50,784 nucleotides of DNA from Synergistaceae bacterium. GTDB lineage: Bacteria; Synergistota; Synergistia; Synergistales; Aminobacteriaceae. Both the position numbers and the translations under genes were made by a program. The DNA lies in assembly GCA_031274425.1 (NCBI GenBank), contig JAISQE010000108.1, positions 1-50,784 of the forward strand. The letters run 5' to 3'. Under the pieces are notes generated by a model. It did not search any database and was not told the DNA's origin. It worked only from the letters and a program-made list of their open reading frames with translations. Shown here one piece after another: positions 11,856 to 25,021 of this stretch (positions are counted from its first letter, which is position 1; the number at the start of each line of letters is the position of its first letter).

Positions 11856-13049
11856 TCATCGTCCATAAGAAGGCCGCGCTTTGAACGCGTGTAGGGGGTG
11901 CGTTTTTCCCCGGGACAATCGTGTCCGCCTGGACTCCGACTGCGGGCTCGACAGGGCGTCGTAAAACCCGATGGAGTCGAAAAACGCTTTGAAGATCTCG
12001 GAGAGCTGGTCGGTTTCCACGAGAAACGCGTCGTGTCCGATGTCGCTTCGAAGTTCTCTGTACGAGGCGTACGCGCCCACGTCCAAAGCCGCCTCCACCA
12101 CCTCCTGAACCTGCCAGGGCGGGAAAAGGATGTCGCTGTTGATTCCCACCGCCAGAAAAGGCTTTTTGCGCAAAGACTCCAACGCGGCCTCGGCGTCGCC
12201 GTAGCCCTTCGCCAGGTCGTGCAGGTCCATCATCTTCGTGAGGTACAGATAGCAGTTCGGGTCGAATCGCCTCGTCAAGAGTTTTCCCTGGTGCATCAGG
12301 TAGCTTTCGACGTCGAAACGGCCTCCCCACTCGTCGATGTTTCGCGAGGCCCTCATGTGCCGCCGGACGAAGGATTCTTCGCTGCGGTAGGTGATCATGG
12401 CCAGCATACGGGCGTTGAACAGCCCATTGACAGGTCCTCTTCCGGGACAGTAGTCGCCCTCCAGCCATTCGGGATCCGACGTGATCGCGCGGCGTTGAAC
12501 CCCGTTGAAGGCGATGGCCTGAGGGTAGAGACGCAACGGCGCGGCGATGGAAATGCCGAAATTCATCGCCGCGCCGAATTGGGCCATCCATTCAAGCGCG
12601 ATCATCCCGCCCAGCGAACCGCCGATGACGCCGGCCACGCGCTCGATGCCCAAGGCGTCCAGGGCCATTTTTTGCGAACGCGCGATGTCGCGGGGATCGA
12701 TAAGGGGGAAACGCATTCCCCAAGGGCGCCGAGTGCCGGGTTCAATATCGGTTGGGGCGGAACTTCCGTAAGGGCTGCAAATGTTGTTACAACAGACGAT
12801 GCACAGCTTATCGGTGTCCAGAACTCCACCCGGCCGCACCAGAGGATCCCACCAGGCGTCGGGGAGATCGGAAACGGGTTCTCCCGCCACGTGGTGGCTA
12901 CCCGTCAGCGCATGACAGAGCACCACGACGTTAGAGCCGTCGGGGCGCGGAGTTCCGTTGACGGAATAGGCGACGCGGACTTGCTTCAAAACTTTCCCAG
13001 AGTGGAGCGCAAGCTCCGGAAGCACGACCGAGCCGAATCGTTCGGACAT
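11856..13049 (-). CDS. metX: homoserine O-acyltransferase MetX
   Basis: This enzyme activates homoserine, typically with acetyl-CoA, as the first committed step of methionine synthesis. It is a 397-aa alpha/beta-hydrolase-fold protein. The nucleophile S145 lies in GGSLGGM, and the acid D306 (NSDILFPP) and base H339 (DIGHDAFLV) complete the triad. CHALTGSHH near residue 45 and NNICSPYGSSAP near 89 are family blocks. Its product is the substrate of MetY, whose gene lies 33 bases upstream in the same operon. Acetyl versus succinyl preference cannot be read here, but the MetY neighbour favours acetyl. The ribosome site is weak, which suggests expression follows metY. Confidence 0.93.
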   Translation of the reverse strand: MSERFGSVVLPELALHSGKVLKQVRVAYSVNGTPRPDGSNVVVLCHALTGSHHVAGEPVSDLPDAWWDPLVRPGGVLDTDKLCIVCCNNICSPYGSSAPTDIEPGTRRPWGMRFPLIDPRDIARSQKMALDALGIERVAGVIGGSLGGMIALEWMAQFGAAMNFGISIAAPLRLYPQAIAFNGVQRRAITSDPEWLEGDYCPGRGPVNGLFNARMLAMITYRSEESFVRRHMRASRNIDEWGGRFDVESYLMHQGKLLTRRFDPNCYLYLTKMMDLHDLAKGYGDAEAALESLRKKPFLAVGINSDILFPPWQVQEVVEAALDVGAYASYRELRSDIGHDAFLVETDQLSEIFKAFFDSIGFYDALSSPQSESRRTRLSRGKTHPLHAFKARPSYGR

Positions 13050-13082: not shown

Positions 13083-14378
13083 CTACGCTTTCGCGAGGGC
13101 GTTTTCGATGTCGGCCAGGATGTCGTCGATGTGCTCGATCCCGATAGAAAGCCGAACCAACTCGGGAGGAAGCCCTCCGGCCCGCTGCTGCTCCTCCGTC
13201 AACTGGCTGTGGGAGGTGCTCGCCGGGTGCAGAGCCAAAGACTTCGCGTCGCCTACATTCGCCAGATGGCTGAAAAGTTCGAGCGCCTCGATGAAGCGCG
13301 CTCCCGCTTCGACGCCGCCCTTGACCCCGAACACCACCATGCCGCCGAAGCCCTTCTTGAGATATTTCGACGCCGTGGGGTAGGTCGGGTCTTTTTTGAG
13401 CCCGGGGAAGCGAACCCACTCCACCTTGGGATGAGAAGAGAGGTATTCGGCGACCTTCGCGGCGTTTTCGACGTGGCGATCCATTCTGAAGGGAAGGGTT
13501 TCCAAGCCCTGGAGGAAGATCCACGCGTTGTCGGGAGACAGGCAGGCCCCCAGATTGCGGAGCGGGACGGTGCGCACGCGCAGGGCGTAAGCGATGGGGC
13601 TCAGCGCCTCCGGCAGGTCGTGAGCCCAGCGCAGCCCGTGGTAGTTGGGGTCCGGCTCGTTGAGCAGCGGAAACTTTTTGTTGCCCTTCCAAGAGAACTT
13701 GCCGGAGTCCGTGATGATGCCCCCGATAGCCGTCCCGTGGCCGCCTATCCACTTCGTCAGGGAGTTGACCACGATGTCCGCCCCATGCTCGATCGAGCGC
13801 AGAAGATAGGGGGTGGTGAAGGTCGCGTCCACAATCAGAGGAATCTCCGCCTCGTGAGCGATCTTCGCGACCTCCGCCACGTCCGTCACGTCGAGGGCGG
13901 GATTGCCGATCGTCTCGATGTAGAGGGCCTTCGTTTTGGGGGTGATCGCCTTCTTGAAGTTCTTCGGGTCTCTCGCGTCCACAAAATTCACCTTGACGCC
14001 GAACTGAGGGAAGATGGCGTCGAACATCGTGTAAGTCCCCCCGTAGAGGTTCGTCCCGGAGACGATCTCGTCGCCGACCTGGGTCAGCGTCGCAATGGCG
14101 TAGTGAACCGCGCTGGTTCCCGAAGCCGTCGCCACGGAGGCCGCTCCGCCCTCCAGCAGGGTAACGCGCTGCTCCAGGGTGTCCACCGTGGGGTTCGTCA
14201 GTCGGCTGTAGATGTTGCCCAGCTCCCTCAGCCCGAAAAGGTCGGCCCCATGTTTCACGCTCTTGAAGACGAAAGAGCTCGTCCTGCTGATCGGAACTCC
14301 CCGCGACAAAGTCGCCGGGTCGGGCTCCTGCCCTCCGTGGATCGCCAATGTCTCGAAACGCCACTTCTTATTGCTCAT
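13083..14378 (-). CDS. metY: O-acetylhomoserine sulfhydrylase MetY
   Basis: This PLP enzyme converts O-acetylhomoserine plus sulfide to homocysteine. At 431 aa it has the length typical of the O-acetylhomoserine aminocarboxypropyltransferase branch of the Cys/Met-metabolism family. It shows the N-terminus RFETLAIHGGQEPDP, YSRLTNPT near 57, the VDATFTTP strand near 183 and the PLP lysine K209 in NSLTKWIGGHG. A strong GGGAGGAA precedes the ATG. It is the first structural gene behind the methionine-rich leader peptide and terminator at 14438-14582, and metX follows. Direct sulfhydrylation therefore appears to be the route to homocysteine. Confidence 0.95.
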   Translation of the reverse strand: MSNKKWRFETLAIHGGQEPDPATLSRGVPISRTSSFVFKSVKHGADLFGLRELGNIYSRLTNPTVDTLEQRVTLLEGGAASVATASGTSAVHYAIATLTQVGDEIVSGTNLYGGTYTMFDAIFPQFGVKVNFVDARDPKNFKKAITPKTKALYIETIGNPALDVTDVAEVAKIAHEAEIPLIVDATFTTPYLLRSIEHGADIVVNSLTKWIGGHGTAIGGIITDSGKFSWKGNKKFPLLNEPDPNYHGLRWAHDLPEALSPIAYALRVRTVPLRNLGACLSPDNAWIFLQGLETLPFRMDRHVENAAKVAEYLSSHPKVEWVRFPGLKKDPTYPTASKYLKKGFGGMVVFGVKGGVEAGARFIEALELFSHLANVGDAKSLALHPASTSHSQLTEEQQRAGGLPPELVRLSIGIEHIDDILADIENALAKA

Positions 14379-14426: not shown

Positions 14427-14437
14427 TAAAATGAAAA

Positions 14438-14466
14438 ACGGGGATCCCCTTTTTAGGGATCCCCGT
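14438..14466 (-). terminator. intrinsic terminator of the metY leader (attenuator)
   Basis: On the minus strand ACGGGGATCCC (14466-14456) pairs perfectly with GGGATCCCCGT (14448-14438) around a 7-base loop. The 3' arm runs into TTTTTCATTTT. This 11-bp stem with a T-run stands between the leader peptide stop and metY, so it should end transcription before the structural genes unless an alternative fold forms. Confidence 0.9.
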
Positions 14467-14516
14467 CGCTTGAGCGCACAGACCGACTAGACGCCGATCG
14501 CTCCAGGCGAGGATCC
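14457..14516 (-). promoter_or_regulatory. candidate antiterminator pairing in the met leader
   Basis: Leader codons GGA-TCC-TCG (14516-14508) can form nine consecutive pairs, one of them U-G, with CGGGGATCC (14465-14457), the 5' arm of the terminator. A ribosome stalled at Met14-Met18 would leave these codons free, allowing the antiterminator to form before the terminator 3' arm is made. A ribosome stalled at Met20 or Cys22 would probably cover them, so the design fits methionine sensing better than cysteine sensing. A ribosome at the stop codon sits next to the segment rather than over it, so how it is released in the terminated state is not settled. Confidence 0.6.
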
Positions 14517-14582
14517 GCAGTCCATGCACATCATCATGCTCATCGCAAATTGAGCTTCGATTGACGTCGCGTGCTTGAACAT
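14487..14582 (-). CDS. 31-aa methionine-rich leader peptide of the metY-metX operon
   Basis: A short frame starts ATG at 14582 behind a perfect AAAGGAGG (14591-14598, 8-base gap) and stops with TAG at 14487-14489. The centre reads FAMSMMMCMDCGSS: methionines at 14, 16, 17, 18 and 20 and cysteines at 19 and 22. The codon run ATG-AGC-ATG-ATG-ATG-TGC-ATG is just upstream of an intrinsic terminator and a methionine biosynthetic gene. This is the layout of a classical amino-acid leader peptide. The Gly-Ser-Ser codons (14516-14508) can pair with the 5' arm of the terminator. A self-standing small protein or a peptide precursor is possible but less likely, as no modification or transport gene is near. 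Confidence 0.8.
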   Translation of the reverse strand: MFKHATSIEAQFAMSMMMCMDCGSSPGAIGV

Positions 14583-14656
14583 TTTCAGATCCTCCTTTGG
14601 GCAAAATTTTTTCACATAAATTCCCTGACGCAATCCATTTGTCCCGACAGCTATGA

Positions 14657-14685
14657 ATCTTAATGTAAGCGCCATCTTCTGTCAA
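14657..14685 (-). promoter_or_regulatory. sigma-70-type promoter of the met leader
   Basis: Minus strand: TTGACA (14685-14680), a 17-base spacer, then TAAGAT (14662-14657). Transcription should begin near 14650, giving about 65 bases before the leader peptide ATG and about 210 bases to the terminator. Confidence 0.8.
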
Positions 14686-22565: not shown

Positions 22566-22600
22566 TTCCTCTATGACCGACGGGTCGAATGGTATATAAC

Positions 22601-22917
22601 ATGCGATGAAGAGGACGAGTAGCTTTTAAGAAACGTACAGAGAGGCGGGAGCCAATGGGTTCGGGGGGCCAGTGATCCTTTCGAGCCGAGAGCTGAGAGT
22701 CCCCGCTGCGAAAACAAAGCGAAAACCCCCTCCGAGCTGGTGTCGAAGCCGGATTTTGTGTTTGGAAATCGGATAAGGCGCTGGGGAGCCGCCCCTTACA
22801 GCGGTTTTAAGAGTCGCCCCCACGGAAGATTCCCAGGGAGTGCGGAAATGGAGTGGAACCGCGATGATCGATGCGCCCACGTCGTCTCCATATATGGAGA
22901 TGGCGTGGGCGTTTTTT
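22601..22917 (+). promoter_or_regulatory. T-box riboswitch controlling thrS
   Basis: The leader has the T-box stem I start GATGAAGAGGACGAGTAG, an AGAGAG segment, and the T-box core GTGGAACCGCG (22853-22863). The core bulge TGGA would pair with the tRNA 3' end UCCA. A terminator hairpin follows at 22873-22917. In this family uncharged tRNA binding stabilises an antiterminator, so thrS should be induced by threonine starvation. The specifier codon could not be placed with certainty; an ACC lies in GCGAAAACCCCC near 22725. The stem I region contains the 19-base segment GGGTTCGGGGGGCCAGTGA, repeated at 23005-23023. Confidence 0.88.
22873..22917 (+). terminator. regulatory terminator of the T-box
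   Basis: GCGCCCACG and CGTGGGCG form the lower stem, and TCTCCA and TGGAGA the upper stem, around TATA. GTTTTTT follows. It lies directly after the T-box core and competes with the antiterminator. Confidence 0.85.
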
Positions 22918-23083: not shown

Positions 23084-25021
23084 GTGTTGAAGTTCGAGGG
23101 AAATAACGGAAAAATCTGTGAGTTCCAGACGGAGTCGGTGAAAGTGTCCGAGGCGCTGTCCGAGCTGGGACTTTTAAAAAAGGCATTGGCGGGCAAGGTG
23201 AATGGAGAGCTGCTGGACCTCGATCGCGGAATATCGCAAGGCGGCAGGGCCGAGCCCGTGCTCGCGAGCTCCGAAGAAGGACTGGAGATCTTACGCCATT
23301 CCGCCGCGCATCTGATGGCGCAGGCGATCGAAAAGCTGTATCCCGGCGCGAAGTTCGGGATCGGCCCCTGCATCAAAGACGGGTTTTACTACGACATCGA
23401 CCTTCCGATCGCTTTGACGGAACAGGACCTGCCGGTGATCGAGGCGGAGATGCGTAAATTCGCGGGCGCTTCGTCGAAGGTTGAGAGAATCGACATGGCG
23501 AGGGACGAGGCGCTCGCTTTTTTCAAGGAGCGCGGCGACCCCTACAAGGTCGAGTTGATCTCGGCTCTGGAAGCTCCAACCGTGTCGCTCTACAAGCAGG
23601 GCGACTACGTGGACCTCTGCCGCGGGCCCCACGTGCCGGACACGTCCTGGATACGGAACTTCAAGTTGCTCTCCTTAGCCGGGGCTTACTGGCGCGGAGA
23701 CGAGAAGAACGTCATGCTGACCCGCGTCTACGGAACGGCTTTCGCCACTCCGGACGAGCTGAAAGAACATCTGCGGCGTCTGGAGGAGGCAAAATTGCGC
23801 GACCACCGCAAGCTGGGCAAGGAACTGGACCTTTTCAGCCTGCACGACGAGGGGCAGGGGTTCCCGTTCTTCCACCCCAAGGGAATGGCGGTGATCAACA
23901 CGCTGATGGAGTTCTGGCAGCGCGAACACACGCGACGCGGCTACGACGAAATACGCACGCCTCTCATCTTGGACCGTTCCCTCTGGCTTCAGTCCGGCCA
24001 CTGGGATCACTACAAGGAAAATATGTACTTCACGGAGATTGACGAGCAGCCCTTTGCCATAAAGCCCATGAACTGCCCCGGCGGGATGCTGGTCTACAAA
24101 ACCCAGATTCGCAGCTACCGCGACCTGCCGCTCCGCATGGCGGAACGGGGCATCGTGCACCGCCACGAGCGCAGCGGCGCTCTGCACGGTCTGATGCGCG
24201 TGCGCTGTTTCACCCAGGACGACGCCCATCTGTACTGCATGCCCGACCAGGTCCGGCAGGAGGTCGTCGGGGTCATGGACCTGTGCGACTATATTTACAA
24301 AAAAGTGTTTGGATTCAATTACAGGGTAGAGCTCTCCACGCGCCCGGAAAATTCTTTGGGGGAGACCGCGCAATGGGAGATGGCGGAGGCAGCGCTGAAA
24401 GACGCCCTCGAGTCCTCGGGGACGCCCTATCGCGTCAACGAAGGCGACGGCGCGTTCTATGGCCCCAAAATCGACTTTCACCTGGAGGACTGCATCGGCA
24501 GAACCTGGCAATGCGGCACCATCCAGCTCGACTTTCAGATGCCGGAGCGCTTCGACCTGACCTACGTCGGACCCGACGGAAAAGAACACCGCCCCGTCAT
24601 GTTGCATCGGACGATTTTGGGCAGCATCGAGCGTTTCCTGGGCATTTTGATCGAAAACTACGCGGGGGCGTTTCCGTTCTGGATCGCGCCCGTGCAGGTC
24701 AAACTGATCCCCATTCAAACCCGAGGGACGGCCCCCGAGATCTCCCAGGCGGAAACCCACGAGAAGTACGTTCGGGAGCTGGCGGACACGTTCAGGGACT
24801 GGGACCTGAGAGTGGAGGTCGACAATCGGGACGAAAAGCTGGGCAAGCGGATACGAGACGCCCAGCTCCAGAAGGTGCCCTACATGATCGTGATCGGCGA
24901 CAAAGAGGTGGAATTGCGCACCGTCGCAGTACGCGAACGCAGCAAAGGCGACCTAGGCAGCATGTCCCTAGACGCCCTCAAGTCCGTCTGGGAGGCTGAG
25001 TTCAATCCATTGAAAAGGTAG
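23084..25021 (+). CDS. thrS: threonyl-tRNA synthetase
   Basis: This enzyme charges tRNA-Thr. It is 645 aa with full domain order: TGS-like N-terminus (1-60); tRNA-SAD editing domain with HSAAHLMAQAIEKLYPG near 73; class II core with MNCPGGM (zinc ligand C331) and RHERSGALHGLMRVRCF near 365; and the anticodon-binding domain with KLGKRIRDAQLQKVPYMIV near the end. The start is GTG behind AAGGAGG. Expression is governed by the upstream T-box. The gene lies between inverted 83-bp repeats. Confidence 0.97.
   Translation: MLKFEGNNGKICEFQTESVKVSEALSELGLLKKALAGKVNGELLDLDRGISQGGRAEPVLASSEEGLEILRHSAAHLMAQAIEKLYPGAKFGIGPCIKDGFYYDIDLPIALTEQDLPVIEAEMRKFAGASSKVERIDMARDEALAFFKERGDPYKVELISALEAPTVSLYKQGDYVDLCRGPHVPDTSWIRNFKLLSLAGAYWRGDEKNVMLTRVYGTAFATPDELKEHLRRLEEAKLRDHRKLGKELDLFSLHDEGQGFPFFHPKGMAVINTLMEFWQREHTRRGYDEIRTPLILDRSLWLQSGHWDHYKENMYFTEIDEQPFAIKPMNCPGGMLVYKTQIRSYRDLPLRMAERGIVHRHERSGALHGLMRVRCFTQDDAHLYCMPDQVRQEVVGVMDLCDYIYKKVFGFNYRVELSTRPENSLGETAQWEMAEAALKDALESSGTPYRVNEGDGAFYGPKIDFHLEDCIGRTWQCGTIQLDFQMPERFDLTYVGPDGKEHRPVMLHRTILGSIERFLGILIENYAGAFPFWIAPVQVKLIPIQTRGTAPEISQAETHEKYVRELADTFRDWDLRVEVDNRDEKLGKRIRDAQLQKVPYMIVIGDKEVELRTVAVRERSKGDLGSMSLDALKSVWEAEFNPLKR

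Follow-up and report, generated by a model that had tools for sequence, protein, structure and literature searches.

In the enterobacterial attenuators of the trp, his, leu, thr, ilv and phe type, a leader ORF with control codons is followed by mutually exclusive antiterminator and terminator structures. PMC3766115 lists attenuators specific for His, Leu, Thr and Trp, together with Ile/Val and Phe, and places their presumed origin in the gammaproteobacteria. Outside the Proteobacteria, leader peptides have been reported for trp, ilv and cys in Actinobacteria (PMC1262725), for His in Firmicutes (PMC2965389, PMC9413887) and for ilv in S. aureus (PMC5794164). These too are short ORFs with runs of cognate codons before biosynthetic genes; in the actinobacterial survey, Met operons showed no conserved upstream RNA structure (PMC1262725).

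Two other kinds of RNA come close. The SAM-I riboswitch of Xanthomonas combines SAM sensing with Met-tRNA charging for met genes: it also senses uncharged initiator tRNA, which it binds directly, and exerts mainly translational control (PMC7270179). T-boxes are modular sensors of tRNA charging with a codon-like specificity element, and tandems occur among T-boxes and riboswitches (PMC12452182).

Here we analyze the metY-metX leader found in a contig of 50,784 nucleotides from a Synergistaceae bacterium (the window, by which we mean the whole stretch of DNA that was analyzed). We interpret it as a ribosome-mediated transcription attenuator that senses Met-tRNA charging, a reading to which we assign a probability of roughly 0.9; stalling, termination and the response to the amino acid are inferred, as there are no expression data. 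Like the enterobacterial leaders, it has a leader ORF with control codons, exclusive antiterminator and terminator folds, and RNA segments 1 to 4 with the roles that they have there. It differs from them in being Met-specific and in belonging to one homologous scaffold that, in Synergistota, precedes Met, Cys, BCAA and aspartate-family genes. For the leader peptides outside the Proteobacteria, we found no description of one in Synergistota, nor of a common scaffold with swapped codons. In contrast to T-boxes, the Synergistota leader has no T-box aptamer and its codons are translated; and whereas Xanthomonas relies on one riboswitch, the Synergistota tandems presented below are predicted to have a separate terminator in each of their two parts and to involve a translating ribosome.

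Our literature search retrieved no Met leader peptide, no Synergistota attenuator and no tandem of a SAM riboswitch and a leader; subscription papers were mostly outside this search, and a description elsewhere is possible. Met-specific translational attenuation is not described in the literature that the search covered, and we consider the leader a new variant of a known attenuator type. The original prediction had called a translational Met attenuator in such an organism not a well-described system, as far as known; we found neither an Rfam family nor a paper on a Met-specific attenuator.

Layout of the metY-metX leader

The features of the leader and of the two genes behind it are the following, in the direction of transcription:

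14657-14685, minus strand: sigma-70-like promoter TTGACA-N17-TAAGAT, consensus score 10/12 (read in the sequence as TTGACA at 14685-14680, N17 and TAAGAT at 14662-14657)
14587-14598, minus strand: RNA segment 1, the leader Shine-Dalgarno AAAGGAGG (14598-14591) and the ATCT after it, with capacity to pair with segment 2
14490-14582, minus strand: 31-codon leader peptide MFKHATSIEAQFAMSMMMCMDCGSSPGAIGV, with stop codon TAG at 14489-14487
14523-14543, minus strand: control codons Met14, Met16 to Met18, Cys19 and Met20, from the reading of the ORF
14508-14516, minus strand: RNA segment 2, GGATCCTCG, formed by the Gly-Ser-Ser codons, outer 5' strand of the antiterminator
14499-14503, minus strand: 5' strand of the inner antiterminator helix, GAGCG (partner CGCTC at 14476-14472)
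14482-14498, minus strand: apical hairpin ATCGGC/GTCGGT surrounding the leader stop codon
14472-14476, minus strand: 3' strand of the inner antiterminator helix, CGCTC
14456-14466, minus strand: RNA segment 3, the arm used by both folds, as 3' strand in the antiterminator and as 5' arm in the terminator
14434-14448, minus strand: RNA segment 4, the terminator 3' arm GGGATCCCCGT and the T-run
13083-14378, minus strand: metY, O-acetylhomoserine sulfhydrylase (TIGR01326, 612 bits against a cut-off of 495)
11856-13049, minus strand: metX, homoserine O-acetyltransferase (NF001209 (PRK00175), above cut-off)

This layout is observed directly, and the elements listed in the original prediction (the promoter, the 31-codon frame, Met at residues 14, 16, 17, 18 and 20, Cys at residues 19 and 22, the 11-bp terminator and the 9-base pairing) were all confirmed in the sequence. 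The terminator stem, ACGGGGATCCC (14466-14456) with GGGATCCCCGT (14448-14438), is a perfect 11-bp helix followed by the T-run, and the hairpin scan gave 13 pairs when G-T was allowed. Segment 2, GGATCCTCG (14516-14508), can pair over nine bases with CGGGGATCC (14465-14457), at -16.3 kcal/mol, and the duplex between segments 1 and 2 reaches -13.5 kcal/mol. The fold of the metY leader is better than that of 200 out of 200 dinucleotide shuffles, with a z of -4.4.

Simple terminators are common, and one could argue that we are looking at the plain terminator of an upstream transcript next to a short ORF that arose by chance. However, the nearest upstream ORF (plus strand, from 14830) is divergent from metY, so the terminator sits within metY's own leader and ends no upstream gene. 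Homologous layouts also recur before amino-acid genes across the phylum, a conservation that already refutes this explanation, and we rejected it as having virtually no chance of being right.

The leader could instead be a metabolite-binding RNA (a riboswitch, for example for SAM) or a tRNA-binding T-box, with the leader ORF as a by-product, and both SAM-I and T-box RNAs exist in the genome of the window. Against this, the Rfam search of the metY leader gave no family at the gathering threshold and only noise matches (His, Leu, Thr and Trp leaders included), and found neither the SAM-I aptamer (RF00162) nor the T-box aptamer (RF00230) there. Twenty homologous loci compared with the Rfam leader families gave none above cut-off. 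Besides, the sole variable that depends on the gene is the in-frame codon block behind the Shine-Dalgarno. On this evidence we rejected a riboswitch or T-box, which is barely credible here.

Alternative folds and the inferred mechanism

If the leader acts as an attenuator, a shortage of Met-tRNA would stall the ribosome on the MMMC codons, and its leading edge would halt just before segment 2 (the GGATCC strand). Segment 2, left free, would then pair with segment 3 in a long antiterminator, and RNA polymerase would enter metY. With ample Met, translation would continue to the stop codon, where the ribosome would mask the inner stretch of segment 2, and the 3:4 terminator would form. In an untranslated leader, the ribosome-binding site (segment 1) would pair with segment 2 and the gene would stay off; this role of the 1:2 pairing as an off-state is plausible and remains an inference. 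The control codons lie mostly at positions -7 to -4 from the antiterminator helix (for Met this is partly a matter of ascertainment), and a ribosome whose A site holds codon -5 would, by its usual footprint, end just before segment 2. As a caveat, a ribosome that terminates at the stop codon would leave part of segment 2 uncovered. The conserved core, MMMC at codons -7 to -4 relative to the Gly codon, includes the Cys codon, and the attenuator probably reads Cys-tRNA charging as well.

The first homologues, from relatives and from paralogues in the same genome, were obtained by DNA similarity. In all 13 of these leaders, the antiterminator (2:3) and the terminator (3:4) are mutually exclusive and have one arm in common, with energies of about -25 to -38 kcal/mol for the former and -22 to -38 kcal/mol for the latter, the comparable stability that the original prediction had expected of the two folds. 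Among 97 distinct sequences, 88.3% of the antiterminator cells were paired, compared to 80.9% in shuffles. Double-sided changes were found in 120 cells versus 41.5 in shuffles, a level attained by 0 of 500 shuffles, and sliding the alignment brought the pairing down to 38-54%. A caveat is that the structure was used to fit this alignment, which therefore leans towards it.

Segments 2, 3 and 4 co-vary at one position, where the triples T-A-T, C-G-C and G-C-G were observed, and the third base of the Gly codon, which is free for the peptide, varies together with the terminator arm. We analyzed 147 homologous sites, each together with its leader ORF and the gene that follows. In 130 of them, the 3' strand of the antiterminator overlaps the terminator arm (23 of 294 in shuffled sequence), and the remaining 17 failed this overlap test. 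A terminator was detected before the first gene in 146 of the 147, with a permissive finder that also reported some hairpin in 175 of 294 shuffles. The pairing of segment 2 with the ribosome-binding site of the leader has a median of -13.8 kcal/mol, versus -8.4 kcal/mol for a shuffled segment 2. Covariation across related leaders had been put forward as support for a Met attenuator, and it is observed: the antiterminator strands covary and the terminators use the same arm. Together with the match between codons and genes described below, the covariation and the shared arm support the reading as a ribosome-mediated Met attenuator, while the response to Met supply stays inferred.

These leaders also bear on two explanations at the level of the peptide. 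The ORF could encode a functional small protein, with its C-terminal GSSPGAIG motif under protein-level selection and the hairpin being incidental. A Gly-Ser-(Ser/Pro)-Pro-Gly motif is in frame in nearly all leaders, and its Pro (+4) and Gly (+5) codons vary in the third base, as such a protein would allow. Nevertheless, the N-termini vary in length and sequence, the codon core changes according to the gene that follows, the third base of the Gly codon varies along with the terminator arm, and several leaders stop right after the motif or miss one of its codons, all of which led us to reject a small protein as very improbable. The other explanation is a nascent-chain arrest peptide. In SecM and TnaC, the tail of the peptide stalls the ribosome, and the GS(S/P)PG tail could do so in response to a small molecule, in which case the Met codons would not be the sensor. 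PPG is an EF-P-dependent pause motif, and PPG or SPG is present in most leaders; but the part that varies is the control-codon block, which follows the gene, and the leader in the window has SPG rather than PPG, while others have SPE or PEV. We judged an arrest peptide very improbable on these grounds and rejected it as well.

As a separate observation, the PPG or SPG of most leaders is found at codons +3 to +5 from the conserved Gly, with free third bases in the Pro and Gly codons. In a leader that works as an attenuator, this tail might hold the ribosome over segment 2 by way of an EF-P-dependent pause, but the motif varies to SPE and PEV.

Control codons and downstream genes in Synergistota

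A covariance model (R1) built from the 13 leaders, none of which precedes ilv, aspartokinase or cysE, identified 102 sites in 69 of the 188 genomes of the phylum. A second model, built from 100 sites, found leader homologues in 111 of them. A search of the second-model type gave no leader matches in a sample of 598 genomes drawn from three other phyla; its first pass is limited, and absence outside Synergistota is likely, without proof. The E-values are rough, given the short calibration. A 26-nt motif match in loci L014 and L015 was discarded as a coincidence, lying inside a long protein frame (PSSPGAIGVYEA).

All 147 sites have a candidate short ORF, and in 125 the Shine-Dalgarno sequence is matched over 5 nt or more. 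Of 144 homologous leaders, 128 have a promoter-like site (at least 9/12, within 180 nt upstream), compared with 19 for shuffled sequence. With homologous leaders throughout the phylum, the layout of the metY leader exceeds chance. Strong comparative evidence, drawn from sequences alone, indicates that it is one member of a Synergistota-wide modular attenuator family, in which a common RNA scaffold carries differing control codons. The original prediction had placed a Met attenuator at metY-metX; this part stands, but its scope was too narrow.

Downstream genes were assigned with Pfam and NCBIfam on representatives, and then by BLAST to those representatives. Leaders before met genes (metY, metX, metQ and metN) carry at least two consecutive Met within the ten codons before Gly in 56 out of 56 cases (27 of 27 genera). 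Those before ilvH or ilvC contain at least five Ile/Leu/Val in the ten codons in 30 out of 30 cases (21 of 21 genera) and a Met pair in none of the 30. Fisher's test gives 8e-24 for the association of Met and BCAA codons with their genes; as the sequences are related, this overstates independence, and the genus counts are safer. Both types of leader coexist in 13 genomes. Met codons occupy positions -7, -6 and -5 in 52, 55 and 52 of the 56 met leaders, respectively, a sharpness that is partly ascertainment, the first model having been trained on MMMC leaders. Aspartokinase leaders read CAMTMTS or close to it, with Met/Thr codons, and homoserine dehydrogenase leaders have Met and Thr codons. 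Leaders of cysteine and sulfur genes (cysE, sulfonate and cystine-like transporters, and others) contain Cys in 16 of 16 cases, at codon -4 in 14. Since ilv, aspartokinase and cysE were absent from the training set, those classes are independent finds.

The match between codons and genes is an observation, and we regard it as the strongest evidence for the attenuator, given that a hairpin without a codon sensor would not be expected to produce it. The Met codons are conserved and the N-terminal flanks variable, as had been anticipated for a Met sensor. Homologues that keep the hairpin and lose the Met codons had been named as a case that would refute it. They do occur, but their codons change to Ile/Val/Leu, Cys or Thr/Met, matching the gene; because these swaps track the downstream gene, such homologues support the mechanism instead of refuting it.

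The genes behind 37 of the 147 leaders, about one in four, fall into none of the four assigned classes. Of these leaders, 26 have BCAA codons, which is consistent with an unrecognised BCAA link, as yet unproven. Two caveats apply. For some leaders of the BCAA type, the gene that follows has no clear role connected with BCAA. And since Met occurs commonly in proteins and also serves as the start codon, its codons signal specificity less cleanly than those of Trp or His.

It is customary to regard leader-peptide attenuators as one-off systems, each of which evolved independently. A single scaffold with different codons before different pathways, often in one genome, would make their evolution traceable, as for T-boxes.

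SAM-I tandems, T-boxes and further leader loci

SAM riboswitches had been considered the usual regulators of met genes, which is half right. SAM-I riboswitches are indeed common in Synergistota (113 of 188 genomes), and the single SAM-I match in the genome of the window (contig C168) lies before metK, but metY-metX has the Met leader instead. In addition, both elements occur together at seven loci of six genomes (L161, L173, L198, L159, L178, L151 and L162), before metQ, metX or metY: a SAM-I aptamer and a terminator-like hairpin ending 77-115 nt upstream of the Met leader, which has its own second terminator. Such tandems suggest that transcription has to pass two independent checkpoints, one for SAM and one for Met-tRNA, to enter met genes, and would constitute a natural two-input gate in which product and precursor are sensed by different chemistry. 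Taken as a whole, we find it likely that one ancestral scaffold spread in Synergistota and was re-targeted by codon swaps to yield Met, Cys, Ile/Val/Leu and Thr/Met sensors, and that in several lineages it was put behind a SAM-I riboswitch that has a terminator of its own. Under this arrangement, met genes would be read only if SAM and charged Met-tRNA are both low.

The window also holds a T-box leader (22597-22892, plus strand; its RF00230 match scores 79.7 bits, short of the gathering score of 93) that precedes thrS (23084-25021), which shows that this genome employs T-boxes besides leader attenuators.

In a poorly studied phylum, leader codons allow the annotation of unknown transporters and enzymes. 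Membrane proteins follow BCAA-type or Tyr/Phe/Ile-rich leaders at L187, L207, L272 and L254; the one at L187 has no Pfam or NCBIfam match, the others resemble it or are unclassified, and we consider them candidate amino-acid transporters. Nine loci with unassigned downstream genes (L242, L244, L248, L249, L251, L257, L265, L274 and L275) form a sub-family of BCAA-codon leaders that end in GPPSGGFG* or near it, followed in some of them by small frames with WRGPFEGF repeats. At L013, a strongly Met-rich leader (KMMMCMMRS, about 447-542) precedes a phenylacetate-CoA-ligase-like gene with no evident Met link. Finally, a radical-SAM protein of unknown role (NF045502) lies behind the Met/Cys leaders NKMACMES and NTMKCTES at L171 and L165 (at L171, the ORF is 99 bases past the start of the leader match), which suggests a link of this protein to sulfur amino acids.
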